This document shows, piece by piece, positions 17,425-40,577 of a stretch of DNA of 41,915 nt (position 1 is the first letter of the stretch; every line of letters begins with the position of its first letter). A program made the position numbers and the translations under genes. Location of the stretch: assembly GCA_017433725.1 (NCBI GenBank), contig JAFRGQ010000064.1, forward strand, positions 1-41,915, given 5' to 3'. The stretch comes from Lachnospiraceae bacterium. Its GTDB lineage: Bacteria > Bacillota > Clostridia > Lachnospirales > Lachnospiraceae. The notes beneath the pieces are model-generated. The model was not told where the DNA came from and searched no databases. It worked only from the letters and a program-made list of their open reading frames with translations.

Positions 17425-18720
17425 ATGCAGGTAAGAATCATTTCTTTCACGGAGCGCGGACAGCAGCTCGCTGAATCGCTCGCGGACCGGCTCTGCGGAA
17501 CAGCCTCACGCTGCAGCAGAGATTGCTCACTAAGTGAGTGGGTGAGGGATGCCTTCAACAGTGCAGATGCACTCATTTATGTCGGAGCAGTCGGCATCTG
17601 TGTGCGTACGATCGCACCGTATATCAAGAGTAAGACGCATGACCCTGCTGTCGTCGTTATAGACGAGACCGGCAGATATGTGATTCCTGTTCTCAGCGGT
17701 CACCTTGGCGGTGCAAATGATCTTGCCCGCCGCATCGCCCGTCTTACCAGGGCGGTACCGGTCATCACGACAGCAACAGATCTTGCCCATGCTTTTTCAG
17801 TGGATGCGTGGGCGAGGATACAGGGATGTGTTGTGGAGAACCCCGGACGGATAAAATCTGTCTCATCGAAGATCCTTGCCGGAGATGATATTGTGATCGT
17901 GAGTGACTTCCCGATTTCCGGGGAAGTTCCGGAGCATGTGATCGTCAGAGTGTGTCGGGATGCGGAGAGCAGGAATGCGTGTATCCGCGGGAGAAACTGT
18001 TGTCCGGGTATGCACGGTAGCATAGATGAGCGCGACGAGAGAACTGTATATGAGAAAGAAGACACAGAAGCTTCCTCCGGGAAAGCCGATGATTCTGTTG
18101 TGCAGGGCAGCATACAAGAGCTTGACGAGATAACTGCATGTGAGAAAGAAGACTCGGACGCTGCTTCCGGGAAAGCCGATGATTCTGTTGTGCACTGCGG
18201 CATAGATGAGCGCGACGGGAAATCATTATGTGAGGCAGAAGACGCAGACGCTGTATTAACGATTCACCGCAGAGATTCCGGAAACGGGCAGATCCTGCGC
18301 ATCGTACCGCGCATCGTGTGCGCGGGTGTGGGATGCAGAAAAGGTATCCCTACGCGAAATATTGAAAATGCGATCCGAAGGGCATTTGAAGAAGCATGTA
18401 TATCTGAAAATGCTCTCTGCGGAGTTTTCAGTATCGACATTAAGGCGGATGAAAAAGGGCTGCAGGAATTCTGTGACAGCAGAAAGCTTCCGCTTGTAAC
18501 ATTTTCTGCTGAGGATCTCATGAGTGTGACGGGAAAATTCACACAGTCTGCATTTGTGAAGGAGATCACCGGCGCTGATAACGTGTGTGAGAGAAGTGCC
18601 GTGCTCGGAGCGGACTCAGACTCTGAAGAAAGTCTCATTTTCCGAAAGCATGCATACGATGGCGTCACGGTGGCACTTGCGGTGCGGACATTTTCACCTG
18701 ATTTTCGGTGGACGGAGTAG
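17425..18720 (+). CDS. cbiG: Cobalt-precorrin-5A hydrolase
   Basis: CbiG opens the delta-lactone of cobalt-precorrin-5A and releases acetaldehyde. The N-terminal domain contains ADALIYVGAVGICVRTIAPY and IPVLSGHLGGANDLARRIA; the central domain follows (VPVITTATDLAHAFSVDAWA); the C-terminal domain starts LRIVPRIVCAGVGCRKGIPT. Between central and C-terminal domains lies an extra acidic block (about residues 190-285) made of 30-residue tandem repeats with SSGKADDSVV. That makes it 431 residues, against about 340-360 usual. GGAGG precedes ATG 17425. It is followed by cbiH with 2 bp between. Confidence 0.94.
   Translation: MQVRIISFTERGQQLAESLADRLCGTASRCSRDCSLSEWVRDAFNSADALIYVGAVGICVRTIAPYIKSKTHDPAVVVIDETGRYVIPVLSGHLGGANDLARRIARLTRAVPVITTATDLAHAFSVDAWARIQGCVVENPGRIKSVSSKILAGDDIVIVSDFPISGEVPEHVIVRVCRDAESRNACIRGRNCCPGMHGSIDERDERTVYEKEDTEASSGKADDSVVQGSIQELDEITACEKEDSDAASGKADDSVVHCGIDERDGKSLCEAEDADAVLTIHRRDSGNGQILRIVPRIVCAGVGCRKGIPTRNIENAIRRAFEEACISENALCGVFSIDIKADEKGLQEFCDSRKLPLVTFSAEDLMSVTGKFTQSAFVKEITGADNVCERSAVLGADSDSEESLIFRKHAYDGVTVALAVRTFSPDFRWTE
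18019..18252. repeat. 90-bp tandem repeat in cbiG, 2.6 copies
   Basis: Units of 90 bp encode SIDERDERTVYEKED..., SIQELDEITACEKED..., GIDERDGKSLCEAED..., each followed (in the first two) by SSGKADDSVV or ASGKADDSVV. The repeat is in frame and lies between the central and C-terminal CbiG domains. Confidence 0.85.
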
Positions 18721-18722
18721 AT

Positions 18723-19460
18723 ATGAAGAAATTGTATATCGTGGGAATCGGTCCCGGATCAGAAAATATGATAACATCGGAGGCTCAGAGTGCGCTTCAG
18801 GACGCAGAGGTCATCTGCGGCTATACGGTCTATGTGGACCTTGTCAGGGAGCGCTATCCCGATAAAGATTTTTTGACCACCCCGATGCGGAAAGAAATAG
18901 AGCGCTGTAGGATGGCACTGGAGACAGCTGATCAGGGCAGAACAGTCGCCATGATTTGCAGCGGCGACGCCGGCGTATATGGCATGGCCGGTCCGATTCT
19001 GGAGATGCAGGAGGAGTTCGCGGAGGTTGAAACCGCAGTGATTCCCGGTCTCACTGCAGCCATCTCGGGTGCGGCGATTCTCGGGGCTCCGCTCATGAAT
19101 GACTTCTGCGTGATTTCCCTCTCGGACCTCATGACGCCGAAGGAAATGATAGAAAAAAGGCTACGCGCAGCCGCCGAGGGAGATTTTGCAATCTGCCTTT
19201 ACAACCCGATGTCGAGAAAACGTCCCGACCATCTCGCGTGGGCGTGCGGTATCCTTCTTGAGAAAATGTCTCCCATCACCGTCTGCGGCTGGGTTCGCAA
19301 CATCGGACGCGACGGTATGGAAAAAAGGCTTCTCACTCTCGGCGAACTAAAGGATGAGAAGGTCGATATGTTTACGACTGTGTTCATAGGTAATTCGCAA
19401 ACTATGAATGTATCCGGGAAAATGGTCACACAGAGAGGTTATTCGATGGGGAGGTGTTGA
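18723..19460 (+). CDS. cbiH: Cobalt-precorrin-3B C17-methyltransferase
   Basis: CbiH performs the C17 methylation with ring contraction. The motifs KLYIVGIGPGSENMITSEAQ, ADQGRTVAMICSGDAGVYGM, VIPGLTAAISGAAILGAPLM, NDFCVISLSDLMTP and AICLYNPMSRKRPDHL are characteristic. At 245 residues it is a plain single-domain enzyme without the insert seen in its neighbours. Start ATG 18723 follows GGAG and lies 2 bp after the cbiG stop. Its end runs into the ribosome binding site of the reductase gene (stop 4 bp before ATG 19465). Confidence 0.95.
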   Translation: MKKLYIVGIGPGSENMITSEAQSALQDAEVICGYTVYVDLVRERYPDKDFLTTPMRKEIERCRMALETADQGRTVAMICSGDAGVYGMAGPILEMQEEFAEVETAVIPGLTAAISGAAILGAPLMNDFCVISLSDLMTPKEMIEKRLRAAAEGDFAICLYNPMSRKRPDHLAWACGILLEKMSPITVCGWVRNIGRDGMEKRLLTLGELKDEKVDMFTTVFIGNSQTMNVSGKMVTQRGYSMGRC

Positions 19461-19464
19461 CCTC

Positions 19465-20367
19465 ATGAATCCATGCAAGGTAATCATATTCGGCGGCACA
19501 ACTGAAGGCCGTGAACTCGCCCGAACCCTGACGGACCGCGGTGCTCTCGTAACGGTCAGTGTTGCGACCGAATTGGGAGAGGAAATGCTCAGAGACATAT
19601 CCGCTGAGGAAGAACCGGGACATTTTCGCACGCTGGTCGGACGCATGAATGTGGGAGACATGCTGCGAACCTTAAAAGGATATGATATCTGCTACGACGC
19701 GACGCATCCGTATGCGGTGGAGGTGACGGCGAATCTCAGGGAAGCCTGCGGAAAGACGGGCACGGAATACATCAGGGTAATCCGAAAGGAAGAGGAGTGT
19801 TCAGAGCTTAATCAAGGACCGGGAGGCGTCCTGCAATCAGAAACTGCTCAGAGCTCAGAAACCGTCCCGGACTCGGAATCCGATCGTAAATCGAAAGCTG
19901 TTCAGAAATCAGAGGATGTCCAGAGATCAGATTCCATCATAATCGTGCGGAGTGCGGCAGATGCCGCCGCATATCTCCTCGAAACCGAAGGGAACATTCT
20001 CTTTACGACAGGCTCGAAAGAGCTGAGAGCATGTGCAGAAATTCCCCGAGAGAGAATGTATGTAAGAGTTCTGCCGACCCGGGATTCCATCGCTGCATGC
20101 GAGGAAGCGGACATCCCACATCGTAACATCATTGCGATGTTCGGGCCTTTCACACAACGCATGAACGAGGCTATGCTGGAACAATACCACATATCTTATC
20201 TTGTGACGAAGGAAGCCGGGAGGAACGGGGGCTTTGAAGAAAAAATGCAAGCTGCGAAGGCCTGCGGAGTCAAGGCTATCGTAATCCGGAGGCCGGAGGA
20301 TTCCGGTGTTACAGTAGAGGAGGCTGCTGCAATGTTTAAATATCAGCAATCAGGGAAAATACTATGA
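19465..20367 (+). CDS. cbiJ: Cobalt-precorrin-6A reductase
   Basis: CbiJ (CobK family) reduces the macrocycle of cobalt-precorrin-6A with NAD(P)H. It begins CKVIIFGGTTEGRELARTL, the family nucleotide-binding loop, and includes DICYDATHPYAVEVTANLRE and the C-terminal LVTKEAGRNGGFEEKMQAAK and AIVIRRPE. Residues about 112-157 form a Ser/Glu/Gln-rich low-complexity insert (ETAQSSETVPDSESDRKSKA) between the N- and C-terminal halves, so the protein is 300 residues instead of about 250. Start ATG 19465 follows GGGAGGTG. Its stop overlaps the cbiET start by 4 bp (ATGA). Confidence 0.94.
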   Translation: MNPCKVIIFGGTTEGRELARTLTDRGALVTVSVATELGEEMLRDISAEEEPGHFRTLVGRMNVGDMLRTLKGYDICYDATHPYAVEVTANLREACGKTGTEYIRVIRKEEECSELNQGPGGVLQSETAQSSETVPDSESDRKSKAVQKSEDVQRSDSIIIVRSAADAAAYLLETEGNILFTTGSKELRACAEIPRERMYVRVLPTRDSIAACEEADIPHRNIIAMFGPFTQRMNEAMLEQYHISYLVTKEAGRNGGFEEKMQAAKACGVKAIVIRRPEDSGVTVEEAAAMFKYQQSGKIL

Positions 20368-21824
20368 AAATAACTCTTATCGGAACCGGTTGCGGAACGC
20401 CGGCCACCCTGACAGAAGAAGGAAAGCACGCACTTGAGCGTGCTGATGTGATACTCGGTGCAGCGCGTGTGTTGAAAGGTTTGCCGGACGCTTGTACGCA
20501 GACGGGCGATTCCACGCGCGAAAAGACGGTGGAGGCAAAACCGAGGCAGATTTGTGATCTGCTGGCCTGCTATATTGAAGATCGTAATATCGAAAATGCA
20601 GCCATCGCTCTCAGCGGAGACTCCGGCTTTTATTCCGGTGCACGCATTTTGAAGGAAAGAATACTCGAGCGCTTTGGGGATGTTTGTCCGGTAGAAATCA
20701 TCCCAGGCATCTCATCTGTCCAGATGCTTGCAGCCCGGCTGGGTATTCCCTGGCAGGACTGGAATCTGGTATCTGCTCATGGCGTGGGTTGCGATCCTGT
20801 CTATGAGATCATGAAAGGCAAAGAGACATTTTTTCTGACAGGCGGAAAATACACAGCGGATGTCATCTGCCGCGAACTTGCCGAAGCAGGACTCGGCGAT
20901 CTCAGGGTGACGGTAGGAGAGAATCTTACTTATCTGCATGAAGATAAAAATGTCAGCACAGATACCGGGCATGTGGACAGCATCCCGGCATCTGATCCGG
21001 ACACGAGAGCTGAGCATATAGACAGTTTCTCAGCATCTGATCCGGATACGAGAACTAAGCATATAGACAGTTTCTCAGCATCTGATCCGAATACGAGAGC
21101 TGAGCGTATAGACAGTTTCTCAGTATCTGATTCGAATACGAAAACTGAGTACATAGTTACCGGCACCGCATCCGAGTGCGCCGAAAGAGCTTTTTCGGAT
21201 TTGACAGTTCTCCTCGTCGATACGAAGACACAGTACGGGAAGCGGCTGATCCAGCCCCGCAGGCCGGCAGGCATGCCGGACGACGTGTTCGTGCGCGGAA
21301 AAGTCCCCATGACGAGGATGGAGGTAAGGTGCGTTATTCTCGGCAAAATGGCAGTCTCGCAAAACGATGTCGTCTGGGACATCGGCGCAGGCACCGGAAG
21401 CGTCAGCGTGGAGCTTGCCATGCAGGCGCGTCAGGTATGGGCCTTAGAGCGCCGCGATGAGGCGGTAGAACTCATCCGGGAAAACAGGGAGAAGTTCGGA
21501 AGGTGGAATCTCCGTATTGTGCAGGGAGAGGCACCGATGGACCTCAAAGAGTTGCCGGATCCGGACGCTGTTTTTGTCGGGGGCAGCGGCGGGCACCTCG
21601 GGGAAATCCTGAGCAAGGTTTGGAGAAGGAACGGGAGAGCGCGCATTTGCATTAGTGCAACGCTTCTTGAGACGCTTCAGGAGAGCCTTGCGGCATTTGC
21701 AGATAGAAAAATCGAGCCGGATATAGTGCAGATTGCTGTTACACGTTCTGAGAAAGTCGGCGGACGGCATATGATGAGGGCGGGAAATCCGATCTATATT
21801 ATCACCGGTTCTTACGAACCGTAA
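20364..21824 (+). CDS. cbiET: Cobalt-precorrin-6B methylase/decarboxylase, CbiE-CbiT fusion
   Basis: A fusion of CbiE (C5 methylation; MKITLIGTGCGTPATLTEEG, ALSGDSGFYSGARIL, VEIIPGISSVQMLAARLGI) and CbiT (C15 methylation and acetate decarboxylation; RGKVPMTRMEVRCVILGKM, WDIGAGTGSVSVELAMQ, FVGGSGGHLGEIL). The CobL-type fusion is common. Between the halves lie four 15-residue repeats (HIDSFSASDPDTRTK-like, residues 203-262). At 486 residues it is long for the family (about 400). The start overlaps cbiJ by 4 bp. It is the last gene of this cob block; a 152-bp gap with part of a dispersed repeat follows. Confidence 0.95.
   Translation: MKITLIGTGCGTPATLTEEGKHALERADVILGAARVLKGLPDACTQTGDSTREKTVEAKPRQICDLLACYIEDRNIENAAIALSGDSGFYSGARILKERILERFGDVCPVEIIPGISSVQMLAARLGIPWQDWNLVSAHGVGCDPVYEIMKGKETFFLTGGKYTADVICRELAEAGLGDLRVTVGENLTYLHEDKNVSTDTGHVDSIPASDPDTRAEHIDSFSASDPDTRTKHIDSFSASDPNTRAERIDSFSVSDSNTKTEYIVTGTASECAERAFSDLTVLLVDTKTQYGKRLIQPRRPAGMPDDVFVRGKVPMTRMEVRCVILGKMAVSQNDVVWDIGAGTGSVSVELAMQARQVWALERRDEAVELIRENREKFGRWNLRIVQGEAPMDLKELPDPDAVFVGGSGGHLGEILSKVWRRNGRARICISATLLETLQESLAAFADRKIEPDIVQIAVTRSEKVGGRHMMRAGNPIYIITGSYEP
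20970..21149. repeat. 45-bp tandem repeat in cbiET, four copies
   Basis: Four exact-length 45-bp units encode HVDSIPASDPDTRAE, HIDSFSASDPDTRTK, HIDSFSASDPNTRAE and RIDSFSVSDSNTKTE. They sit in frame at the junction of the CbiE and CbiT domains. The two inner copies are almost identical in DNA, which suggests recent expansion. Confidence 0.9.
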
Positions 21825-21856
21825 TCGACTTTTGGCATCTGAATCATATACTTACA

Positions 21857-21882
21857 TCACGAGAATTCTGTTTCAGAGATTA
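21857..21882 (+). repeat. Partial copy of the TIR element right end
   Basis: TCACGAGAATTCTG, then TTTCAGAGATTA, matches the right end of the element at 12465-12490 except for two bases. The rest of the element is absent. It lies in the cbiET-kinase gap. Confidence 0.65.
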
Positions 21883-21976: not shown

Positions 21977-24547
21977 ATGGATAGTAAGTTTCAAAAACAG
22001 CTCCTGGACGCATTCATGTCCGACTATCAAAGAGTTTATCTGGTGGATCTCCTCGAAAACCAGATATTCATGCAGGTCAACAGCGACAAGTCAAATCAGG
22101 AGACTACTCCCTGGATGCAGGCTGCGATAGATCCGACAGTCTCATTTGAAAAATTTTTACATTACTACAGCGAGTATTTCGTGGAGGAGAAACATCGAGA
22201 ATGGTTCGAGAAGCAGATGTCTCCCGAAAACATTCGCACCACTCTGCACGGTCGCAACTCTTTCAACATTTCCTGTCCGCTGGTTTCAGGAGACTGGAGG
22301 CGAATCGAAGTGCGGCGTTTCGGGGAGGGCAGCGGTATTGCAACGACTGCCTTGATATGCATTCCGTTCAGCAGTGAGAGCGATGAAAAGGAACGGTTCA
22401 TGCCGGGCGATGAAGCTATATTCGTCGAATCCAATCATGACAGTGACTTAAATCAGAGTTTAACAAGAATTCTCGGTTCTATTTCCGCATGCAATGTCGA
22501 CGTCACGGATTATATGCTCCTGGATGGGAACTTTGACGCCATTGACCTATTCTATCCCGTAACGAACTTTTCGATGCCGGATGAATTCGGCATACATGTT
22601 GATAATTGGCTCGATAAGATCCTGCCGGAAAGCAGAGAACAGGTGAAGACGCTCATGTCCCGGGAATATATGCTGCAGAGTTATGAGCTTGGAAACCGGG
22701 AGCCGTGGATCGAGTACCGAACCAGGGACCGTTTCGGGAATGAAGTATGGCTTAATCAGAAGCTTCATCTGACCAGAAATGAGGCGAACGGACACATTAT
22801 GTGTCTGGTGGTCGTGCGTGATATCACGGATCAGGTGGCGACCCGCGTGGAGAATGAAAGGCGAATGAGCCTGATAGAGGGTCTCACTGCGGAATACTCA
22901 TCGGTGTATTTTGTAGATCTGATAAAAGACAGATACTATATTTATCGTCTTGCCGAGTATATTCGCAAGCGTCTGGAAGAAGGTTTTTTTGACAGCTTTG
23001 ACAGCACGATGGAGTATTTTGTTGAAAATGTCGTCTATACATTTGACGAGGAGACTGTCAGAGACAAGATTTTCATAGACGGGATTCGTAAGAATCTGGA
23101 AGGTCGGAGAGATTACAGCTTTATATTCCGTGCCAAGACCAAAAAAGGACTCTTTTATTACAGATGCATGGTCGTTCGAATCGATAAGAATGAGGGAGAA
23201 GCGACGGAGGTACTGGTCGGATTTGCGGATGTCAACGAAGAACAGGAATACTCGATGCGCCAGAAACAGTTGCTTGAAGATGCCCTCGAGCAGGCGAGGA
23301 ACGCAGGGAAAGCAAAGACGATGTTCTTATCGAACATGTCACACGATATCAGAACGCCTATGAATGCGATCATAGGTTTTGCCGAGATCGCACAGCTTCA
23401 CCATGACGATATCGAGATAGTACAGGACAGCCTGGGTAAAATACTGTCTTCGGGAGAACATCTGCTGCAGCTCATCGATAATATTCTGGATATAAGCCGC
23501 ATTGAGAGCGGTCGTCTGGTCCTGAAGGAGGAACCCTGTTCACTGAGAGGACAGATTGATGAGGTCATGGACATTTTCATGCCGCAGATCAGTGCACGAA
23601 ATATTGTATTCACCAAGATGATTGCAGATGATGTGGCGGAGTATATTTTCTGCGATGCGCTCAAGATGAAACAGCTGATTATCAATCTTATGAGCAATGC
23701 CGTAAAGTACACCCCGCCCGAAGGCAAAATCGAGCTCAGAATCGAGAGCGCTGAAGCGCCGGAAGGTTACGCGGGTGTTGAAATGCATCTCATTGACAAC
23801 GGTATCGGTATGAGTCCTGCATTCATTCGTAAGATGTTTGTCCCGTTCGAACGGGAAGAGAATTCAGCCATCAGTCAGGTTAGAGGCAGCGGACTCGGGA
23901 TGGCGATCTGCAAGGGTATTGTGGATGCGATGGGCGGAACGATTACTGCACTCAGCAAGCAGAATGAAGGAACCGAGATCATCGTTCATCTGGAGTTCAG
24001 GCTGCAGGACAGCACAATCAGGGGAGCAGCCGAAGTTATGTCGTACGGACCGTCAGAACATGTTCGTTACAGACTCTTCAGTCGCCCTCTCCTTGGTCAT
24101 ATATCGAAGGACAAATACAGAATACTGCTGGTCGAGGATAACCGAATGAACCGGGAAATCGCGAAGAAAATGCTCTCCCATCTGGGCTATGAGGTGAGCA
24201 TGGCGGAAAATGGCGATACGGCAGTGGAAATCATGCGTGACGCCGAGGAATCGACGTATGATCTGATTTTGATGGATGTCCATATGCCCGGTCTCAGCGG
24301 TTATCAGACGACAGAGAAGATCCGAAATCTCGGCGGAGATAATACATGGATTCCGATTGTTGCTATGACGGCAGACGCATTTGAGAGCGATGTGCATCAT
24401 GCGCTTCGGGCGGGCATGAATGCATTTATTTCAAAACCGGTGAATTTCAGGACGCTGCAGACGGTCCTCGACAGGTTCCTGGGGGAGCCGAAGGATAGTG
24501 AAGAGGAAGCCGGGGGCGAAGAGGGAGCCGGAAACGAAGGCATCTGA
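21977..24547 (+). CDS. Cytoplasmic PAS hybrid sensor histidine kinase
   Basis: An 856-residue protein: three PAS-like sensor modules (about 1-140, 160-290, 300-425; the first and third share a YRVYLVDL/YSSVYFVDL start), HisKA with phosphoacceptor His456 (MSHDIRTPMNAI), HATPase (NLMSNAVKYTPP, DNGIGMS, GSGLGMAI) and a receiver domain with phosphorylated Asp767 (LILMDVHMPG). No membrane segment, so the signal is intracellular. GGGAGG precedes the ATG. No output domain or partner regulator is encoded nearby, so the phosphoryl group probably goes to a protein elsewhere. It interrupts the cobalamin genes. Its stop codon lies in a 38-bp tandem repeat. Confidence 0.93.
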   Translation: MDSKFQKQLLDAFMSDYQRVYLVDLLENQIFMQVNSDKSNQETTPWMQAAIDPTVSFEKFLHYYSEYFVEEKHREWFEKQMSPENIRTTLHGRNSFNISCPLVSGDWRRIEVRRFGEGSGIATTALICIPFSSESDEKERFMPGDEAIFVESNHDSDLNQSLTRILGSISACNVDVTDYMLLDGNFDAIDLFYPVTNFSMPDEFGIHVDNWLDKILPESREQVKTLMSREYMLQSYELGNREPWIEYRTRDRFGNEVWLNQKLHLTRNEANGHIMCLVVVRDITDQVATRVENERRMSLIEGLTAEYSSVYFVDLIKDRYYIYRLAEYIRKRLEEGFFDSFDSTMEYFVENVVYTFDEETVRDKIFIDGIRKNLEGRRDYSFIFRAKTKKGLFYYRCMVVRIDKNEGEATEVLVGFADVNEEQEYSMRQKQLLEDALEQARNAGKAKTMFLSNMSHDIRTPMNAIIGFAEIAQLHHDDIEIVQDSLGKILSSGEHLLQLIDNILDISRIESGRLVLKEEPCSLRGQIDEVMDIFMPQISARNIVFTKMIADDVAEYIFCDALKMKQLIINLMSNAVKYTPPEGKIELRIESAEAPEGYAGVEMHLIDNGIGMSPAFIRKMFVPFEREENSAISQVRGSGLGMAICKGIVDAMGGTITALSKQNEGTEIIVHLEFRLQDSTIRGAAEVMSYGPSEHVRYRLFSRPLLGHISKDKYRILLVEDNRMNREIAKKMLSHLGYEVSMAENGDTAVEIMRDAEESTYDLILMDVHMPGLSGYQTTEKIRNLGGDNTWIPIVAMTADAFESDVHHALRAGMNAFISKPVNFRTLQTVLDRFLGEPKDSEEEAGGEEGAGNEGI

Positions 24548-24690
24548 AAGATAACGAAAAGAAAGCCGAGAACAAAGGCATCTGAAAGATAACGAAAAGA
24601 AAGCCGAGAACAAAGGCATCTGAAAGATAACGAAAAGAAAGCCGAGAACAAAGGCATCTGAAAGATAATAAAGAGAAAGTCGGAATCGAT
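24527..24690. repeat. 38-bp tandem repeat spanning the kinase stop codon
   Basis: Three near-perfect 38-bp units (starting CATCTGAAAG at 24541, 24579 and 24617) continue into a fourth at 24655 that decays, and a degenerate half-copy precedes them. The period is not a multiple of three and the first CATCTGA contains the stop codon of the kinase, so the copies are untranslated. There are no spacers, so it is not CRISPR. Confidence 0.9.
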
Positions 24691-24783: not shown

Positions 24784-26361
24784 GTGAGAAGACTGATGAT
24801 ATCTGCGATGAGCAGCGGCAGCGGAAAAACCATAGTGACATGCGGTCTGCTCGCGCTGCTGAAAAAGCGCGGATATCATGTCCGAAGCGTAAAATGCGGA
24901 CCGGATTATATAGACCCCATGTTCCACAGCCGCGTTCTCGGAGTGGAAGGGGAGAATGCGGATCTCTTCCTGATGGGTGAAAAGAGAGTAAGAGAGATTC
25001 TCTGCGGTAACCCGGATCATACGGACGAGCGGATCGGGGAAGAGGAATCTTTCAGCGAAGCGCGCGTGTCTTCGGATTTTACAAATGAGAGGATCGAAGA
25101 GCGCAGCTATGTTCTCGCGGAGGGTGCGATGGGTTTTTATGATGGCATCGGCGGGACTACGGACAACAGTGCGTGGAATATTGCTGACAGGACCGACACG
25201 CCTGTGCTTTTGGTCATCCGGTCAAAAGGGCAGAGCCTGTCGCTGGCAGCGCAGGTCCGGGGCTTTCTGAATTTCAGAAAACCGAGTCATATAAGCAGCG
25301 TGATTCTCACGGATTGCCATCCTTCTCTGTATGCACATCTCAGGCCGATTCTTGAACATGAGACCGGGCTGACAGTTTTCGGGTATCTGCCTTCGATGGC
25401 GGAAGCGGAGATTCCGTCCAGACATCTGGGGCTTGTCACAGCAGATGAGATTTCTGATTTGAGAAACCGCTTTGAGAAGATTGCTGTGCAGATGGAGAAG
25501 ACGGTGGATGTTGAGGGGCTGTTGCGTATTTTTATAAGGGATGCCAGTGAGGAAGTTTTGTCAGGGTCGGGGACGCCTGACATTCCAGTGGGAGATTCCG
25601 TAAAAAAGAGTGATGTCTCGGTAGGATGTGCCGGGAATGAGGGTGCTATGCCGGAGAAAGTACTCGGGCAGGAGATCGTGCCGATACATGACCACACGGT
25701 ATCTGTATGTGCGCTTCCCTGTAGAGTTGCCGTCGCCCGCGATGAGGCCTTCTGTTTTTATTATGCGGAAAGCCTGCGGGCTCTAAGAGAAGCCGGTGCA
25801 GAACCGGTCTTCTTCAGTCCTGTTCATGACAAATGTTTACCTGACGATGTTTCAGGTCTCTATCTTGGTGGGGGTTATCCTGAACTGTATGCGGGAGAAC
25901 TCAGCGAAAACCGGGAGATGCTTGCGAAAATCAGAGAAGCCGTCAAAGCCAAAATGCCACTGATTGCCGAGTGCGGAGGATTCCTCTATCTGCAGAAATA
26001 TCTGGAAGATGAGTCGGGGACGGTGCATGAGATGGTGGGTGCATTTTCAGGAACGGGTCGTCCGACCGGACACTTGGTGCGTTTTGGCTATCTTTATATG
26101 ACAGCTCTTCAGGATTCCCTTCTCTTTAGGAAAGGAGAGGTCATTCCCGCCCATGAATTTCACCACTGGGATACGGATGACAACGGCAGGGACCTTGAGG
26201 CGGTCAGAGCCCGCGGAGGGCAGCCCTGGCAGTGTGCATATGTGTCGGATTCTATGTATGCAGGGTTTCCCCATATCTCGCTTGGAGGGGAGGTTCCGCT
26301 TGCGGAGAGATTTGTGGAGCGGATGAAAGAATTTCTTTCGAGTTCCGATAAGGCGTACTAA
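24784..26361 (+). CDS. cbiA: Cobyrinate a,c-diamide synthase
   Basis: CbiA amidates the a and c side chains of cobyrinate using glutamine and ATP. N-terminal ATPase: MISAMSSGSGKTIVTCGLLA (P-loop) and VRSVKCGPDYIDPMFH; EGAMGFYDG follows. C-terminal glutamine amidotransferase: GGGYPELYAGEL, PLIAECGGFLYLQ (nucleophile Cys) and HEFHHWD. At 525 residues it is longer than the usual 450-460; extra segments lie after ILCGNPDHTDERIGEEES and in the interdomain stretch ASEEVLSGSGTPDIPVGDS. Start GTG 24784 follows GGAGG. It begins a second cobalamin block (cbiA-cobU-cbiB). Confidence 0.95.
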   Translation: MRRLMISAMSSGSGKTIVTCGLLALLKKRGYHVRSVKCGPDYIDPMFHSRVLGVEGENADLFLMGEKRVREILCGNPDHTDERIGEEESFSEARVSSDFTNERIEERSYVLAEGAMGFYDGIGGTTDNSAWNIADRTDTPVLLVIRSKGQSLSLAAQVRGFLNFRKPSHISSVILTDCHPSLYAHLRPILEHETGLTVFGYLPSMAEAEIPSRHLGLVTADEISDLRNRFEKIAVQMEKTVDVEGLLRIFIRDASEEVLSGSGTPDIPVGDSVKKSDVSVGCAGNEGAMPEKVLGQEIVPIHDHTVSVCALPCRVAVARDEAFCFYYAESLRALREAGAEPVFFSPVHDKCLPDDVSGLYLGGGYPELYAGELSENREMLAKIREAVKAKMPLIAECGGFLYLQKYLEDESGTVHEMVGAFSGTGRPTGHLVRFGYLYMTALQDSLLFRKGEVIPAHEFHHWDTDDNGRDLEAVRARGGQPWQCAYVSDSMYAGFPHISLGGEVPLAERFVERMKEFLSSSDKAY

Positions 26362-26406
26362 AGCGCAAAGGTATTGGAAGTTTTAGTAAATGACAGGTCA
26401 AAATCC

Positions 26407-27378
26407 ATGCTCATTATAGTGACAGGCGGATCAGCCAGCGGAAAAAGTGAATATGCCGAGAACCTTGTTCCGAATGCAGGAAGCCGCGTGTACCTTGCCA
26501 CTATGGAACCTTTCGGGGCAGAGGCGGAGGCGAGGATCGCGAGACATCGGAAGCTTCGCGAGGGGAAGGGATTTGAAACAATCGAGTGCACCGTGAACAT
26601 CGGAGACTGTTTTGAAGCATGCCGCGGAAAGCAGGTGCTGCTCGAAGATCTTCCGAATCTTGTTGCAAATGAAATGTTCAGCTCTCATGCACACAGCACA
26701 GCCGGAATCGCTGAACAGATTTTGGAGTTGGCACGCATTTCAGAAAGTCTGATCTGCGTCACAGGAATCCTGACTGCGGACGGCAGGGTGTATGACGAGA
26801 GCACGATGGAATATCTGAAAGAACTCGCTGCAATTGAGAGAACACTGACTGCGCAAGCGGACAGAGTGATTGAAGTTGTGTGCGGGCAGGGCAGCGAACT
26901 GAAAAGACCGTTCCGCGTGAATGAGGATATGACAAAACAGGAGAGAGAAGAAAAGACGGAACAAGAGACGGGGCATGAGAAGAAACGAGAGAAGGAATAT
27001 CAAAAGGAACATGAGATGATATTTGTCACAGGTCCGATGTTTTCCGGAAAAAGAGCGTATATAAAATCTGTGCTGAATCTAAGTGACGAGGAGTTTGCGG
27101 AGCGAGCCGTGTGGAATGTCGAGGAACTGGTCAGTGAGAAAGCAGTTAAACTCGAATCTCTGGCGGATGAATTGGCTTTGAAAGATATAGTCATCGCGGT
27201 TGAGATCGGTTCAGGTCTTGTTCCGCTCGATGCTTCAGAGAGGGAGAAGCGGGAGAGAGCGGGAAGGCTGGCTTGTATGCTTGCTGAGCGGGCGGATACA
27301 GTTATTCGTGTTGTGTGCGGGTGTCCGCAGATTTTGAAGGGAGCAGGCATATCGGAGACGACGGAATTTGAGAAATAA
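26407..27378 (+). CDS. cobU: CobU adenosylcobinamide kinase fused to a second CobU-like domain
   Basis: The N-terminal half (1-175) is CobU, which phosphorylates adenosylcobinamide and transfers GMP: P-loop TGGSASGKSEYAE, guanylylated His47 in RIARHRKLR, LLEDLPNLVANEMF. A Glu/Lys-rich linker (about 175-203) leads to a second, shorter domain: MIFVTGPMFSGKRAYIKS, then IAVEIGSGLVPLDASEREKR and ADTVIRVVCGCPQILKG. This domain has the GxGxVP motif but no guanylylated His. I recall such a small paralogue as a separate neighbouring gene in related clostridia, so this looks like a gene fusion. ATG 26407 is preferred over TTG 26374. A weak ribosome binding site precedes it. Confidence 0.9.
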   Translation: MLIIVTGGSASGKSEYAENLVPNAGSRVYLATMEPFGAEAEARIARHRKLREGKGFETIECTVNIGDCFEACRGKQVLLEDLPNLVANEMFSSHAHSTAGIAEQILELARISESLICVTGILTADGRVYDESTMEYLKELAAIERTLTAQADRVIEVVCGQGSELKRPFRVNEDMTKQEREEKTEQETGHEKKREKEYQKEHEMIFVTGPMFSGKRAYIKSVLNLSDEEFAERAVWNVEELVSEKAVKLESLADELALKDIVIAVEIGSGLVPLDASEREKRERAGRLACMLAERADTVIRVVCGCPQILKGAGISETTEFEK

Positions 27379-27495: not shown

Positions 27496-28686
27496 ATGCG
27501 GTTCATAGAAAGTATATGTCTGGCATTTGTTCTGGACCTCCTGATCGGTGATCCGACCTGGATCCCGCATCCGGTCGTCCTGATGGGCAAATGCATCACC
27601 GCACTTGAGCATTTTCTCCGCCCGCGTTTCCCGCAAACTCCGAAAGGAGAGCAGGCGGCAGGGAGAGTGGTTGCTGTGGTGCTGCCTGTGGTGACATTTG
27701 CCTTGACGGCAGGGATTCTTTACGGGGCTTACAGAATGCATCCGGTGGCGGCATTTGTTTTACATACCTTCTGGTGCGCGCAGGCGCTCGCCGTGAAGGA
27801 CATGTTAAAGGAGAGCCGAAATGTGGCGCGCGAAGTTTCGCTCGCGGATACGCTCGCAAATGCCCGGAGCATGATGGGTGACAACCTCATCGGGAATGTT
27901 CCGATCGAGGAACAGGAGAAGCCTCAGCGATCAAAGTCGAAAAGGTCGAAGAGAAAATCGAAGAAAAAGGGCAGGAAGGCAGATAAAAAACATGCGGGCA
28001 GCGAGTCTGCAAATACCCGTGACGATCTCATCTGGAACAATGCCCGCAGTGCTGTCGGGCGAATCGTAGGCCGGGATACTGCAGTGCTTGATAAAGCCGG
28101 GATTATCCGTGCAACTGTGGAGACAGTGGCGGAGAATTTTTCCGATGGCGTTGTGGCTCCGCTTTTCTATATGGTCATCGGCGGTGCTCCTCTTGCGCTT
28201 GCCTATAAAGCCGTCAATACCATGGACAGCATGATCGGCTACAAGAATAAGAAGTATCTGCATTTCGGAAGTGCCGCGGCAAAACTGGATGACAGAGCGA
28301 ACTTTCTTCCGTCTCGTCTGGCAGCACTGTTTCTAATTCTCTCTGCCCGTATCTGTCAGGGCTCTGAGGTAGCGAAAAGAGCCTTCAAAATATGGAAAAG
28401 GGATCGCCTTAAACATCCGAGCCCGAATTCCGCACAGACGGAATCGGTCATGGCGGGTGCTTTGGGCGTGAGGCTGCTCGGACCGACCAGCTATTTCGGG
28501 AAGCTTCATAAAAAGGAGTGGATCGGGGATAGCTTAAGAGAAGTCGAGACGAAGGATATCGCGAAGGCTTGCCGTATGTTTTTGGTGGGAAGCTTTGTGG
28601 CCTTGATTTTTCTGCTTGGTGCGAGGGGTTTGTTCGTGGCGGTAGTCAGGTATACGCCGATACTGTTTCGAAGGATTGTTGGGTGA
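27496..28686 (+). CDS. cbiB: Adenosylcobinamide-phosphate synthase
   Basis: CbiB attaches aminopropanol phosphate to adenosylcobyrate in the membrane. The family blocks AFVLDLLIGDPTWIPHPVVLMG, NNARSAVGRIVGRDTAVLDK, ATVETVAENFSDGVVAPLFY, YKAVNTMDSMIGYKN, and SPNSAQTESVMAGALGVRLLG are all there, with four or five membrane helices. Between residues about 135-178 lies a highly basic Lys/Ser insert (SKSKRSKRKSKKKGRKADKK). The preceding ANARSMMGDNLIGN resembles the following NNARSAVGRIVGRD, as if the insert arose by local duplication. At 396 residues it is long (about 315-330 usual). The ribosome binding site is weak. Confidence 0.94.
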   Translation: MRFIESICLAFVLDLLIGDPTWIPHPVVLMGKCITALEHFLRPRFPQTPKGEQAAGRVVAVVLPVVTFALTAGILYGAYRMHPVAAFVLHTFWCAQALAVKDMLKESRNVAREVSLADTLANARSMMGDNLIGNVPIEEQEKPQRSKSKRSKRKSKKKGRKADKKHAGSESANTRDDLIWNNARSAVGRIVGRDTAVLDKAGIIRATVETVAENFSDGVVAPLFYMVIGGAPLALAYKAVNTMDSMIGYKNKKYLHFGSAAAKLDDRANFLPSRLAALFLILSARICQGSEVAKRAFKIWKRDRLKHPSPNSAQTESVMAGALGVRLLGPTSYFGKLHKKEWIGDSLREVETKDIAKACRMFLVGSFVALIFLLGARGLFVAVVRYTPILFRRIVG

Positions 28687-33452: not shown

Positions 33453-33671
33453 ATGAAAAAACTGTTTAAAGCAGCAAACAGGTATATCGAGACCAGTGAC
33501 TGGAAGATCATTGCTGTACTGAAATTCTGCTTGATTTCGCTTGGAATGATGATCGGGATGTGCATTGGCGGAAAACACAAAAAGAAGGTTTATGCGGTTG
33601 CGGGACTGGTGTTCATTATTACGTATATCCCGCTTATGCTGAAGTTCTACAAGGTATTTAAGGAGTCGTGA
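33453..33671 (+). CDS. Small two-helix membrane protein (clostridial, often labelled phosphate-permease-like)
   Basis: A 72-residue protein starting at ATG 33453 after GAGGAGG. KKLFKAANRYIETSDWKIIA is a conserved start I recall in clostridia; it is followed by a membrane helix (LISLGMMIGMCIGG), a KHKKK loop and a second helix (VAGLVFIITYIPLMLKF). Database names such as permease of phosphate ABC transporter exist for it but are not evidence. Function is unknown. The stop overlaps the GTG start of the cobD-like gene by 4 bp. Confidence 0.85.
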   Translation: MKKLFKAANRYIETSDWKIIAVLKFCLISLGMMIGMCIGGKHKKKVYAVAGLVFIITYIPLMLKFYKVFKES

Positions 33672-34966
33672 CATCAAGGATGTACATGGAATTCGAACAT
33701 GGAGGAAACTGGGCAGATTATGAGGAGATTTGCGGTGAAGAAATCCTTGATTTTTCCGCAAATGTATCTCCATTCGGTCTGCCGGAGAATGTTAGGGAGG
33801 CGGCAAGTGCCTCCTTTAAAAATGCGTACAGATATCCCGATCCTGAGTGTCGGGATCTCAGAAATGCGATAGCCGACAAATATGATCTGTGTAGCGAGCA
33901 TGTTGTTTGTGGGAACGGCGCGGCTGATTTAATTTACAGGATTGCATATGCAGTGAGACCGCGAAAGGCTATAGTACCGGCACCGGATTTCAGCGAGTAT
34001 GAAAAAGCATTGAAACAGGTCGGATGTGAGATTGAGTATTGGGAGTGGATGCGAGGAGATTGCACTGTAGAGAAATGGCTCTACAAAGGCAGGCAGGTAC
34101 TGACCACTGAGTGTGAAAGGCAGGTACTGACCACTGAGTGTGATAAGATACAGAATGGCGTGGTTCCGGTGAATGACTTGAATTATGTACCGGAGTCTGA
34201 CAGCGTTGAGGGCGGAACAGCTGATTTGTCTGATGATGCATCGAAAGATGATAGACCGAGACTAATATCGGAGACCGACATCGGTGTAGGCAGAATACCT
34301 TACTTGTCTGATGATACTCTGACCGAAGATTTAGATATGATAATTCTCAGCAACCCTAATAATCCTTCGGGATGTCTTTATATGCCGACTTTTTTGAGAG
34401 CATTAGTAGCAGAGTGTGTGCAGAAACAGATACTTCTCGTCGTGGATGAATGCTTTATGGATTTTGTAGACAGTGCCTGTACATACAGCCTGCTTGAATT
34501 TGTTGCCGACTGCAGGAATCTGATAGTGATTCGTGCCTTCACGAAATTCTATGGAATGGCGGGGCTACGGCTCGGCTGGTGCGCCACTTCGAATGCAGAA
34601 CTCATCGCAGAAATGAAGAAGGCAGGTCCGCCCTGGTCAGTATCGATACCGGCGCAGGCGGCGGGAATGGCTACGTTGTCGGAAAACTCTTACGCTCATA
34701 AGCTTCGGGGGTATGTTTCAGCTGAACGCCAACGACTTCAATTCAATCTTCGAAGATTGGGACTTCAGGTCATTCCCGGAGCGGCGAATTATATCTTATT
34801 TTATTCGGAAAGGACAGATCTCGCCCGGCTTCTTTTAGAGAGAGGAATTGCGATACGAGACTGTTCGAACTATGTAGGGCTCGGTCCTGGCTGGTACCGG
34901 GTGGCGGTTAGACTGAGGGAGGAGAATCAGCGATTGCTTAGAGAGATGGCGTTCGTATTGAGGTGA
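33668..34966 (+). CDS. cobD: Threonine-phosphate decarboxylase-like aminotransferase
   Basis: A class I/II PLP enzyme of the HisC/CobD group that makes aminopropanol phosphate, the substrate for CbiB. EFEHGGNWADYEE, LDFSANVSPFGLPENV, YRYPDPECRDLRNAIA, VCGNGAADLIY, LSNPNNPSGC, LLVVDECFMDFVD and FTKFYGMAGLRLGW (PLP Lys about 293) are all typical. An insert of roughly 80 residues (about 135-218) contains a duplicated RQVLTTEC and acidic Ser/Asp stretches, between the AIVPAPDFSEYEKAL and DMIILSNP blocks, making it 432 residues (about 360 usual). GTG 33668 overlaps the upstream stop; ATG 33680 or 33686 are other possible starts. Confidence 0.88.
   Translation: MTSRMYMEFEHGGNWADYEEICGEEILDFSANVSPFGLPENVREAASASFKNAYRYPDPECRDLRNAIADKYDLCSEHVVCGNGAADLIYRIAYAVRPRKAIVPAPDFSEYEKALKQVGCEIEYWEWMRGDCTVEKWLYKGRQVLTTECERQVLTTECDKIQNGVVPVNDLNYVPESDSVEGGTADLSDDASKDDRPRLISETDIGVGRIPYLSDDTLTEDLDMIILSNPNNPSGCLYMPTFLRALVAECVQKQILLVVDECFMDFVDSACTYSLLEFVADCRNLIVIRAFTKFYGMAGLRLGWCATSNAELIAEMKKAGPPWSVSIPAQAAGMATLSENSYAHKLRGYVSAERQRLQFNLRRLGLQVIPGAANYILFYSERTDLARLLLERGIAIRDCSNYVGLGPGWYRVAVRLREENQRLLREMAFVLR
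34091..34144. repeat. 27-bp in-frame duplication inside cobD
   Basis: AGGCAGGTACTGACCACTGA plus GTGTGA occurs at 34091 and again at 34118. It encodes RQVLTTECE / RQVLTTECD and lies in the insert of the aminotransferase. The copies are identical over about 26 bp, so the event looks recent. Confidence 0.85.
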
Positions 34967-35018: not shown

Positions 35019-35059
35019 ATTATCGAAGCACGAGCAAGAATGCCGTCTACTTCGGTAAA
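35019..35059. repeat. 41-bp dispersed hairpin repeat, copy 2
   Basis: ATTATCGAAG... GAGCAAGAATGCCGTCTACT ...TTCGGTAAA. It has the same length and interior as copies at 6263 and 35093; the left arm is slightly degenerate. Confidence 0.75.
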
Positions 35060-35092
35060 CCGAAAGGCCTGAGCCGGTCAAGCTCATAAAGA

Positions 35093-35133
35093 ATTACCGA
35101 AGTACGGGCAAGAATGTCGTCTACTTCGGTAAA
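35093..35133. repeat. 41-bp dispersed hairpin repeat, copy 3
   Basis: ATTACCGAAG (35093-35102) and CTTCGGTAAA (35124-35133) enclose GGGCAAGAATGTCGTCTA. It is 74 bp from copy 2. Confidence 0.75.
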
Positions 35134-35225
35134 CTGGGGGCTCGAGCCAGAGAAACCCAAGCAGAGAATACCGAATTACGCCCCACACCCCACGATTTAT
35201 TTATGCTGAAATTTGTCTGAAAATA

Positions 35226-36941: not shown

Positions 36942-36944
36942 AAT

Positions 36945-36998
36945 GAAACAGAGTCACTGCATAACAGGGAAAGCTGCTATGTGGTGATTCTGTTTTTT
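36945..36998 (+). terminator. Terminator of the GH13 gene
   Basis: An imperfect 18-bp stem (GAAACAGAGTCACTGCAT 36945-36962 / ATGTGGTGATTCTGTTTT 36979-36996) running into a T-rich tail just after the stop codon. Confidence 0.75.
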
Positions 36999-37128
36999 AT
37001 TCGGAACCGCTGTGCGAACCTAATAATCATAATTCGGCGCATAAATGCGTCTTTTTCTCAAAAGTTGCAGCGCAATTTTGAGAATATACACTATTAAGTA
37101 ACTATACAGGATTGCACATTGAACTGCT

Positions 37129-37158
37129 TTGAGTAGAGAGTTTCTCATAAGGTATGCT
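37129..37158 (+). promoter_or_regulatory. Probable promoter of the HAD phosphatase
   Basis: TTGAGT (37129-37134), 18-bp spacer, TATGCT (37153-37158), about 29 bp upstream of the start codon. Confidence 0.45.
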
Positions 37159-37186
37159 AATAAGAAAGATAAAGAAAGGAGTACAC

Positions 37187-37996: not shown

Positions 37997-38078
37997 GAAT
38001 TGCGCGATGAAGTCGTATTTCACTTTGCGCGCGTATTATAGACTCATGTCACGAGTAATCGCGCGATGATGAAAATAA

Positions 38079-38181
38079 GAGGGGCTGTCGCATTAGACGT
38101 TATCACCACTACATATAGCCGACATCTTCAAATAATGTCTGCCATATGCAGTGGTGTTTTGTCTTAATACGACAACCCCTC
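38079..38181. terminator. Long palindrome between converging genes
   Basis: Outer arms GAGGGGCTGTCGCATTAGAC (38079-38098) and the near-complement at 38161-38181, inner arms CACCACT / AGTGGTG (38104 and 38150), with a small loop. Ends resemble GGGGCTGTCGCA-type termini. It would stop both strands, and may also be a miniature mobile element. Confidence 0.7.
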
Positions 38182-38231
38182 AGCTTCAGTAATAATATCA
38201 TGACCGCTTCGAGATTTATGATATATAAGTT

Positions 38232-40577
38232 TTAATTCAAATCATGGACCTTATATAAACGATACAACCCGTCTTCGGACGCAAAGACCAGATCACAGAC
38301 CTCTTTTATCGGTTCCTCATCTGCAGGAACATCATCGTAATACATATCATTTTGGAAGAGTACGTACGTGATTCCCTCCGCCTTGATTGTCTCAAGGAGA
38401 GTATCAGCAGACATGGAAGTGTACATCTGCTTTGCAAGCTCGAACCGTGCATCTGTGTCATAACCGGCAGACCACGCATAATATGGCCATCCGCAATAGA
38501 GACGGCATCCGCTGACGGTGAACTCTGAGACGGAGTCGGGACCGGAGAGGATGAGATCGTCATTTGTAAAATTTTCCTTTATATAAGCAGTCAGGCCGCT
38601 TGTTGTGTCGACCGTGACACAGTGCTTATCGTCATTGTCTCTTATAATGATAGTATAATCATATAAACCTGTCGCTGTGAGCAGCAGTGCAACGACCACG
38701 GCGAGCGCTTTGCCGGGCACTTTGCTATATCCCGACGTATGCCCTTTCTTGGCAGGCTCACCTCCGTCTTCCGGTGCATACTCTTTCTTGGCGGGCATAC
38801 CTCCGTCTTCCGGTGTATGCTCTTTCTTGGAGGACTCATCGCCGTCTTCTGGTGCATATCCTTTCTTGCCGGATACACCGCCTTTTTCAGGGGCATGCCC
38901 CCTGCTGTCTGTAAAGAGAGATACCACAATATCCGCCCATATAATCGAGAGATATGCCATGGCCATCATGATATACTTGTGGTTCACTGTGACATCCGGT
39001 GTCAGGGAAACCGTGAAGGAGAAGACGACCGGAAGCAGGAAAGACGTTATGAGGGCTCTCTGCTTTCTGTCCGCTATGAACAGGGCAAATACGCTTCCGA
39101 GGATTGTAACTCCCGCTACTTCGGCGATATACCCGATAACGCCCAGAAAAGATTTATCTTCACTGATGAATCCCCAGAAGAAAGTCGGGGAAACGGCAGA
39201 GCCGTAGATAAAGGCTTTGGTCTGCAGTTCGGCAATCAGTACGCTGACCACCGCAAGAATCAGGTAGTCGAGCTTGTTCTTTGAGAAAATCGCAAATCCC
39301 GCCAGTATCAATAAACTGCCGATTACGCATGCGCCGTTCCAAAAGGATGTGAGCCCAAGGATTATACCGGTCACGAGAGCAAGATCCGGGGCTTTGGGAA
39401 TCCAGGCTTCTTTTGTGAGGAAGAAGGTCTTTACCCAGGATGTGAAGGCGGCGGTCATAGTGTATGCACCGTCTGCTTTTTTGCCTTCGCAAGCCTCTTC
39501 CAGATATCCGTAGAAATACCAGATGACGGCTGTCGCGATAATCATACCGAATCCGAGATGCCTCTGGTTCAGATAAACGTTATAGTTCCAGAGACCCCAG
39601 TTCTCATTGGTCGTGTAACCGATAAAGTTCTCGTTTGTCAGAAATGCCTGCACAAGGTCGCCTGCCTTCAGGTGTTCACTTATGAACAGAAAGACCGCCA
39701 TACCGCTTCGGAATGTGAAGAAAATGGCCGTTAGAACCGCCGAAGCGAAACGACCCGTGATTCGCAGAGCGAGCTGCGAGAGCATGATGAAGAAGCTGAA
39801 GAGCGACAGCGTACTCGTCAGGTTGTATGCAAATGTAAGCGGCAGCCCCAGAAACTCCATATTTCCCGTAAAGAACATGAACATAAAGTGGTATTTGATG
39901 TCCTCTCCGGCGTAGAACGGGTACTCGGTCGGGTAATTCGCGAACCATGAAAATGAACGGATGAGCGCTACATTCGGCGCGTAATCGCTGAATACGGTAA
40001 AGCCCATCTGGATATTGTTCCCGTTCATGTGGAGAACATAGTGGAAGCTGAACCAGACAAATGCCAGAACAATCAGATAGAATATCGCCTCTTTTTTAAA
40101 GAGAGCATCATCTTTAATCAGGCCGGATGCATGCAGGACCTGCATCAATCCCTTACGAGCGGGTTTTGGTACAGTCTTTGAGACGGCTCCAGAAGCATCC
40201 ATGGAACATGATTCCACCGGATTCTCCCGATTGTCGAAGAATTCTGCCCCGTCTTCGACAGGAGATGATTTGTTTTCTGAATCAGATTCCTTCGAATTCT
40301 TCCTACTGCCGAAAAATGATAGACCAAGAATGATGAGGGAGAAGCCGAGGACGATGGCATTTGCATATCCGAGCGGCCTTTCGATTCCACCGGCGACCCG
40401 GAGCGTGTAAGCTATCAGGTAGAGAGGCCACGTGATCAAGAGGACGCCTACTCCGAAAGATGAAGCCAGACGGACCCAGATGAGATTATGGTGTGAACCT
40501 GCCCTGTCCGTTATGAACAGGTCGGTGATTTGCCAGCCGATGGCGGTTGCGATAATAAGATATAAAAATGAGAGCAT
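38232..40577 (-). CDS. Polytopic membrane protein, GT-C glycosyltransferase-like
   Basis: A 781-residue protein with about 13 membrane helices. The first large loop has GFTVFSDYAPNVALIRSFSW and YPFYAGEDIKYHFMFMFF, where GT-C enzymes keep acidic catalytic residues. The C-terminal soluble part contains YCGWPYYAWSAGYDTDARFE, resembling the WP..... motif of DUF2298/YYY-type proteins, and ends ITYVLFQNDMYYDD. A Lys/Pro/Gly-rich cytoplasmic loop (about residues 570-640) holds 13-residue tandem repeats. It may transfer sugars to lipid or cell-surface glycans; not proven. No clear Shine-Dalgarno precedes the start (GAAACT only). Confidence 0.75.
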   Translation of the reverse strand: MLSFLYLIIATAIGWQITDLFITDRAGSHHNLIWVRLASSFGVGVLLITWPLYLIAYTLRVAGGIERPLGYANAIVLGFSLIILGLSFFGSRKNSKESDSENKSSPVEDGAEFFDNRENPVESCSMDASGAVSKTVPKPARKGLMQVLHASGLIKDDALFKKEAIFYLIVLAFVWFSFHYVLHMNGNNIQMGFTVFSDYAPNVALIRSFSWFANYPTEYPFYAGEDIKYHFMFMFFTGNMEFLGLPLTFAYNLTSTLSLFSFFIMLSQLALRITGRFASAVLTAIFFTFRSGMAVFLFISEHLKAGDLVQAFLTNENFIGYTTNENWGLWNYNVYLNQRHLGFGMIIATAVIWYFYGYLEEACEGKKADGAYTMTAAFTSWVKTFFLTKEAWIPKAPDLALVTGIILGLTSFWNGACVIGSLLILAGFAIFSKNKLDYLILAVVSVLIAELQTKAFIYGSAVSPTFFWGFISEDKSFLGVIGYIAEVAGVTILGSVFALFIADRKQRALITSFLLPVVFSFTVSLTPDVTVNHKYIMMAMAYLSIIWADIVVSLFTDSRGHAPEKGGVSGKKGYAPEDGDESSKKEHTPEDGGMPAKKEYAPEDGGEPAKKGHTSGYSKVPGKALAVVVALLLTATGLYDYTIIIRDNDDKHCVTVDTTSGLTAYIKENFTNDDLILSGPDSVSEFTVSGCRLYCGWPYYAWSAGYDTDARFELAKQMYTSMSADTLLETIKAEGITYVLFQNDMYYDDVPADEEPIKEVCDLVFASEDGLYRLYKVHDLN
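38743..38898. repeat. 39-bp tandem repeat, four copies, in frame
   Basis: Four 39-bp units (CCTTTCTTGGCAGGCTCACC onwards, + strand) encode 13-residue units such as EYAPEDGGEPAKK and EHTPEDGGMPAKK in the large membrane protein. They lie in a soluble loop. Confidence 0.88.

Follow-up and report, generated by a model that had tools for sequence, protein, structure and literature searches.

Recurrent in-frame tandem duplication as the probable source of variable inserts in the cobalamin enzymes of a Lachnospiraceae bacterium

Several of the cobalamin biosynthesis genes in a 41,915-nucleotide contig of a Lachnospiraceae bacterium (assembly GCA_017433725.1, contig JAFRGQ010000064.1; hereafter "the window") carry in-frame tandem arrays or low-complexity inserts. 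The coding arrays keep the reading frame; the inserts turn over between the window and one sibling species, occupy shared sites with different contents across the genus, are predicted to be disordered in the two proteins modelled, and are built of copies that diverge almost neutrally. We propose that they arise through repeated tandem duplication, in frame, within loops under weak constraint, and we regard this near-neutral process as the probable explanation. It is an ordinary mechanism, unusually clear and concentrated here. The window is contig C61 of genome G000 (2.66 Mb in 98 contigs, 77% complete). The nearest relative found, hereafter the sibling, is genome G030 (RUG12161, uncultured Lachnospiraceae bacterium), whose contig C4 (CACYPS010000004.1) is collinear with the window at 84-96% DNA identity in the main blocks, except for a relE-like open reading frame (ORF) at 816-1145 that has no match in the G030 stretch. 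Pfam and NCBIfam together identify CbiD, CbiF, CbiG, CbiH, CbiJ, CbiE-CbiT, CbiA, CobU, CbiB and CobD in the window.

Tandem arrays were called with Tandem Repeats Finder (TRF), and window counts use a score of at least 50 with overlaps merged. An earlier note on this DNA had named several repeats, and TRF recovered every one of them, about where the note placed it. The note had also claimed that every clear coding repeat is a multiple of three, and this is true of all six coding arrays in the window; two further arrays that it had not named are non-coding and have periods of 38 and 74 bp, not divisible by three. For comparison outside the window, we sampled 795 kb of the same genome, about 30% of it. 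There, the period is divisible by three in 59 of 61 arrays that lie wholly inside ORFs and in 10 of 38 that do not (65 of 67 and 10 of 40 with the window included). It looks as though duplication itself is indifferent to frame and selection keeps the frame. TRF unit identity in the window arrays is 76-94%, except for an identical 27-bp pair in cobD.

Seven cobalamin enzymes, all encoded on the forward strand, differ from their sibling counterparts by internal insertions or deletions (indels) of at least 5 residues. In cbiG (17425..18720; Pfam), the insert at residues 178-273 or so separates the N-terminal and middle domains from the C-terminal domain, lying between CbiG_mid (124-174) and CbiG_C (299-419), and includes a 90-bp array of 2.7 copies at 18011..18253; 60 residues of CbiG are absent in the sibling. 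CbiJ (19465..20367) has a Ser/Glu-rich insert at about residues 110-146 (19792-19902), inside the CbiJ domain, and the sibling protein is 60 residues longer, with a 36-bp array of 6.0 copies. The insert of CbiET (20364..21824; about residues 193-261) holds a 45-bp array of 3.8 copies at 20988..21156, at a site where the sibling, differing by 5 residues, has a different array (30 bp, 2.0 copies); the CbiE model TIGR02467 breaks off at position 181 of 204 (residue 193), and the CbiT match starts at about 302-304. PF01888 covers residues 15-337 of CbiD (13960..15294) for 254 profile positions. Its variable insert, at about residues 77-128 (14188-14343), is inside the CbiD domain and shows indels of 17 and 1 residues against the sibling, which has its own 27-bp array of 2.2 copies at the site. 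CbiA (24784..26361; Pfam CbiA 5-215 and GATase_3 314-476) has one insert at about residues 75-106, within the P-loop domain match, and another at 245-310, between domains; the sibling has 18 extra residues and a 54-bp array of 1.9 copies. The cobU gene (26374..27378) encodes CobU and a second CobU-like stretch, with a Lys/Glu-rich insert (26932-27003) between the two and a 24-residue indel against the sibling. The second stretch is shorter than the first, and in many congeners the two matches are in different ORFs. CobD (33668..34966; TIGR01140 over its cut-off) has an insert at about residues 138-215, inside the domain match, such that residues 131 and 141 of structure 1lc5 align to CobD residues 131 and 216. 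Its 27-bp array (34091..34143, 2.0 copies, 100% identical) is not among the sibling's arrays, corresponding to a 9-residue indel there; a second indel spans 42 residues.

Four other enzymes show no indel of this size between the siblings. CbiF (15376..16215, forward strand; TIGR01465 over its cut-off; 278 amino acids, 94% identical to the sibling protein without gaps) and CbiH (18708..19460, forward strand; TIGR01466 over its cut-off) have no insert; CbiB (27496..28686, forward strand), which differs by a single residue, has a Lys-rich region at about residues 134-180, inside its domain match; and CbiP is encoded elsewhere in the genome (locus L265, contig C74). The low-complexity inserts that the earlier note described in CbiJ, CbiA, CobU, CbiB and CbiD are all present. 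It put the inserts at domain boundaries, which is correct for CbiG, for CobU and for one of the two CbiA sites; those of CbiD, CbiJ, CobD and CbiB and the other CbiA site fall inside domain matches, and the array in CbiET splits the CbiE domain. The window arrays do lie outside catalytic cores, as claimed; CbiP departs from this pattern, since it has a decayed tandem duplication of its own stretch that starts at the GVCGGYQMLG segment, which has a catalytic role. Compared with [Eubacterium] cellulosolvens LD2006, with protein starts taken as the first start codon, eight of nine proteins are longer, in line with the note, and CbiJ is shorter.

In the sample compared, these differences are concentrated in cobalamin enzymes. 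From 631 ORFs called, we obtained 114 usable sibling pairs (29 in the window and 85 elsewhere); for the other ORFs, the sampled G030 DNA offered no counterpart reaching 70% identity across 60% of the ORF. CbiF was absent from the ORF caller's output and was compared separately, CbiP was a targeted addition, and AroA was targeted and stands outside the counts. Indels were present in 7 of 11 cobalamin enzymes, a group of mostly neighbouring genes picked for looking odd, as compared with 3 of 20 other window genes and 7 of 85 pairs elsewhere, which are whichever sampled stretches overlapped and may include spurious ORFs (C10:18581-19714 looks so by sequence). The Fisher p-value is 7e-5 for 7/11 against 7/85, and 1e-5 for the 7 of 9 cobalamin genes run by script. 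In this sample, then, ordinary genes elsewhere in the genome are not affected as often as the cobalamin genes. Pfam was applied to six of the seven indel-bearing genes elsewhere, which include those for a periplasmic binding protein, a GntR/aminotransferase protein, an SH3 protein and a surface Ig-like protein, as well as a small protein with sub-threshold membrane-family matches and a shikimate dehydrogenase (5 residues near the C-terminus). The sibling comparison is stronger evidence of concentration than the count of TRF arrays, which are found in 3 of 10 window cobalamin genes and 39 of 614 ORFs elsewhere (p = 0.02).

Length variation was also compared across the genus, for which we used 42 genomes, one per species. 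As a measure of variation, we took the standard deviation (sd), in residues, of the length by which near-full domain matches exceed the profile, omitting partial matches and joining split matches within one ORF by their outer ends. The sd is 37 for CbiD (28 genomes; 18 in the 25 with a single-stretch match), 23 for CbiJ (28 genomes; 16 in 26) and 10 for CbiG_C (26 genomes). For comparison enzymes, it is 0.5 for HisD (34), 2.1 for AICARFT (35; 0.6 before eight rows with other starts or with stops are added) and 3.5 for CTP synthase (28, with one outlier of 19). EPSP-family proteins were sorted into two groups by score, excluding G000:C90, G023:C5, G003:C148 and partial rows. One group, presumably MurA, has an sd of 0.6 (35 rows), and the AroA-like group has an sd of 20 in 30 rows, or 8 in 27 single-stretch rows. 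HemC (porphobilinogen deaminase) also varies (sd 18, nine genomes). Because AroA-like proteins and HemC vary too, the trait is not restricted to the cobalamin pathway, and the concentration seen in the siblings is not exclusivity: the trait is a property of an enzyme class in which cobalamin enzymes are prominent, probably a weakly constrained class. HemC is present in 9 of the 42 genomes and has no match in G000 or G030; we speculate that several members of the genus may take tetrapyrrole precursors from outside, bearing in mind that G000 is only 77% complete.

Alignments of orthologs from the genus show that one loop per protein takes most of the inserts. Insert size at the shared site ranges from 0 to 123 residues in CbiG (after residue 177; 33 aligned proteins), from 0 to 97 in CbiJ (after residue 109; 36 aligned rows) and from 0 to 81 in CbiET (after residue 192), and some members of the genus have no insert at the CbiG site. 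Inserts at the same site seldom resemble each other. BLASTP of inserts of at least 20 residues (E 1e-3), which has low power on such short low-complexity peptides, linked just two sets: the window plus G030/RUG12161, and G020 plus G041 and/or G034. CbiG, CbiJ and CbiET together have 41 distinct inserts that are 20 residues or longer (a count that omits distant loci L054 and L063 and fusion row L030); 13 of these contain a TRF array with a score of at least 40, and all 13 periods are multiples of three; several are made of their own units, such as 36 bp in 4.3 copies in G011. The inserts are thus lineage-specific, as the earlier note had asked of close relatives, with turnover between siblings and similarity at shared sites confined to close siblings.

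Structure prediction, which the earlier note had named as a way to see whether the inserts are disordered, points to disorder in both proteins modelled. In models of moderate overall confidence built from shallow alignments (9 and 8 sequences; mean predicted local distance difference test score (pLDDT) 72.5 for CbiG and 68.4 for CbiET), CbiG 190-271 and CbiET 190-260 have pLDDT below 50 (about 27-33 and 21-29, respectively) and no secondary structure; CbiG 116-123 and CbiET 290-302 and 460-474 also fall below 50. The earlier note had further proposed comparing the ratio of nonsynonymous to synonymous substitution rates (dN/dS) in inserts and cores. Repeat copies compared with each other give 0.5-1.3, whereas the pooled cores of nine cobalamin genes give 0.17. 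As for origin, a search of the 795-kb sample with eight insert regions, from seven window cobalamin genes other than cbiB, gave no match beyond the window itself, and the array in the sibling's CbiA copies adjacent core sequence. Together with the self-duplication in CbiP, these sequence comparisons fit an origin by duplication in place.

We therefore favour the first of two ideas in the earlier note, neutral slippage tolerated in linkers, in a near-neutral form, on the strength of the sibling turnover, the dissimilar inserts at shared sites, the dN/dS of the copies and the predicted disorder. Under this model, short gene segments of about 27-105 bp would be tandemly duplicated in place, again and again, by replication slippage or unequal recombination, two routes that are indistinguishable here. 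Copies of a length not divisible by three would break the frame and be removed; copies that fall in loops, or in linkers between domains, of enzymes under moderate constraint would persist as disordered inserts, diverge almost neutrally, and be lost or re-amplified within the time it takes sibling species to diverge. Both this route and the reason for the cobalamin bias are inferred; cobalamin enzymes may be over-represented because they offer several very permissive loops under weak constraint.

Several observations weigh against this model. At 85-90% identity, indels occur in 6 of 6 cobalamin genes, as against 2 of 6 genes elsewhere and 2 of the 3 remaining window genes; the numbers are small, but relaxed constraint may not be the whole cause of the cobalamin bias. 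The insert lengths of CbiB and CbiP are almost constant between the siblings, and AroA has no indel in that pair. The alignable parts of the inserts (eight genes) have a dN/dS of 0.42 rather than 1, indicating that some constraint or alignment bias is left, and the unit-to-unit estimates (0.99 for CbiG, 1.28 for CbiET, 0.69 for a 714-residue protein and 0.53 for a membrane protein) are built on few substitutions. Lastly, the overall frequency of arrays is unexceptional: of every 100 ORFs, 6.4 carry an array in this genome (window excluded), 6.5 do so in G030 and 5.6 in a partly redundant collection of distant loci. What stands out is the kind of gene struck, rather than the number of arrays. 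In favour of the model, no coding array occurs among the 41 ORFs of two E. cellulosolvens-type loci (42 kb).

An alternative, which we consider unlikely, is that the inserts are selfish mobile palindromic elements placed in frame, for which there is a published precedent in Rickettsia (PMC10969869). Congener G039 (L230, L181) indeed has strongly folding, palindrome-like in-frame inserts in its CbiH-CbiJ linker (60 bp, 3.1 copies; z score -2.9) and in CbiG (z score -3.2), which fold more stably than single-base shuffles and contain segments that appear palindromic by eye. In the window, however, folding is unremarkable for the inserts of CbiG, CbiJ, CobU and CobD (CbiET has a z score of -2.7) and the units differ from gene to gene. 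With no dispersed copies of the eight insert regions in the 795-kb sample, we rejected a mobile-element origin for the window inserts.

Two further alternatives invoke physical association of the enzymes, and draw on gene fusions elsewhere in the genus. Fusions beyond CbiET were found in eight ORFs from seven genomes (ten ORFs scanned; loci L211, L225, L221, L205, L030, L209, L184 and L230) in seven arrangements: CbiH-J-E-T, J-E-T, J-E-A (two, running to the end of the fetched DNA), J-T, E-A, F-G and H-J, J-T occurring with E-A. In 19 of the 29 genus genomes with a CbiJ match, CbiJ lies within an ORF of at least 478 residues. It is improbable, in our estimation, that the enzymes from CbiF to CbiA form a physical assembly whose connections are being rewired in evolution, with CbiH, J, E, T and A fused in changing orders in some species, and separate but furnished with large disordered arms in others. 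The arms would then give loose, sequence-independent contacts, acting as spacers or in a condensate-like manner, such that disorder is kept and sequence is not. Unfused CbiJ proteins carry larger inserts than fused ones (p = 0.0005, from phylogenetically non-independent proteins; the second rows of G000, G011 and G030 were dropped, as were the four other named loci, and the G018 row is partial), which could be read as the insert standing in for fusion. However, fusion status tracks clades on a CbiG tree (branch support not examined), so the difference in insert size is not independent evidence.

We also consider unlikely the second idea in the earlier note, that the linkers tether enzymes of one pathway into an assembly, here with the inserts as linkers or sticky arms of the cobalamin enzymes. 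It gains from the concentration of inserts in one pathway (7/11 versus 7/85), from the plausibility that same-genus fusions lend to physical association, and from a review suggesting that membrane-associated components could favour a membrane-based metabolon (PMC7689651). By contrast, the sequence, length and presence of inserts vary even between siblings, some members of the genus lack an insert at the CbiG site altogether, and similar arrays are present in unrelated proteins. With no feature conserved, we discarded tethering by inserts. The fusions hint at physical association more strongly than the inserts do. They are evidence in their own right that joining of these enzymes is possible, and give an assembly hypothesis a better point of departure.

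That the copy numbers are draft-assembly errors is very improbable: the window genome is a 98-contig draft and the sibling record is, by its title, metagenome-assembled, but units other than the cobD pair are diverged, indels are in frame, gene order is the same in the sibling bar the relE-like ORF, and many genomes have inserts of other kinds. The arrays do not fit phase-variable contingency repeats, whose units, not divisible by three, switch the frame: every coding period in the window is divisible by three. Selection for hydrophilic inserts was rejected too: the inserts are hydrophilic, but their in-frame translation (-0.90) does not exceed that of the +2 frame (-1.06) in this respect, so this test shows no selection on insert composition. 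An RNA explanation was dropped, since no Rfam family matched the window at its gathering score.

Similar arrays occur in genes unrelated to cobalamin. The 714-residue protein (9953..12097, reverse strand) has a 48-bp array at 10013-10175 and a 16-residue indel against the sibling, and the membrane protein (38232..40577, reverse strand) has a 39-bp array of 3.3 copies at 38744-38872 and a 13-residue indel; neither has a Pfam match at E 0.001. A polysaccharide deacetylase (Pfam; 16187..17302, forward strand) has an 18/36-bp array at 16523-16612 and a 7-residue indel. Elsewhere in the genome, arrays of this kind are found in what appear from sequence to be a transporter ATPase and a methyltransferase-like protein. 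The putative transporter-type ATPase, at locus L076 (12890-13831), has a low-complexity insert with a 15-bp repeat ahead of the LSGGQ motif. The first of the two non-coding window arrays (38 bp, 4.1 copies; 24526..24679, forward strand) begins in the last bases of a histidine kinase gene and extends into the gap that precedes cbiA. The second (74 bp, 2.1 copies; 35024..35180) consists of CTTCGGTAAA-type units. Intergenic arrays of 74-bp period with such inverted units also lie at 6264-6306 in the window, at 17580-17700 in L075, and at 50980-51287 and 79723-80325 in contig C4 of the sibling; we take them to be a REP/BIME-like family. Arrays of 73-bp period in L078 do not match this family.

Literature searches turned up no account of tandem repeats or inserts in the cobalamin enzymes of this group, which is not proof that there is none. 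The inserts provide a natural series of variable-length insertions at fixed sites in enzymes that are conserved in other respects, and could help to map the insertion-tolerant loops of cobalamin enzymes; they also make protein length a poor guide to annotation in this genus. The changing fusions in congeners are natural constructs for asking about channelling of cobalamin intermediates.

Known systems resemble these inserts in part. Protein tandem repeats in disordered regions, as described in one study (PMC7230257), share their duplication origin, disorder-promoting composition and predicted disorder; unlike those, the window repeats lie within soluble enzymes of cofactor biosynthesis, most of them from one pathway, and change between sibling species. 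Low-complexity stretches are also known from prokaryotic proteins, where one account emphasises conserved, functional regions (PMC6821194), whereas the window inserts are lineage-specific and unconserved. The Rickettsia palindromic elements are likewise inserted in frame in metabolic genes, but form repeated families of about 150 bp (PMC10969869), whereas the units of the window, within the DNA sampled, are local and particular to one gene. Finally, fused cobalamin enzymes such as CbiE-CbiT are familiar (NCBIfam CbiE, CbiT, CbiH, CbiJ, CobB), and the window also has CbiET; its CbiJ, CbiH and CbiA are separate, whereas in congeners they are fused in several arrangements.

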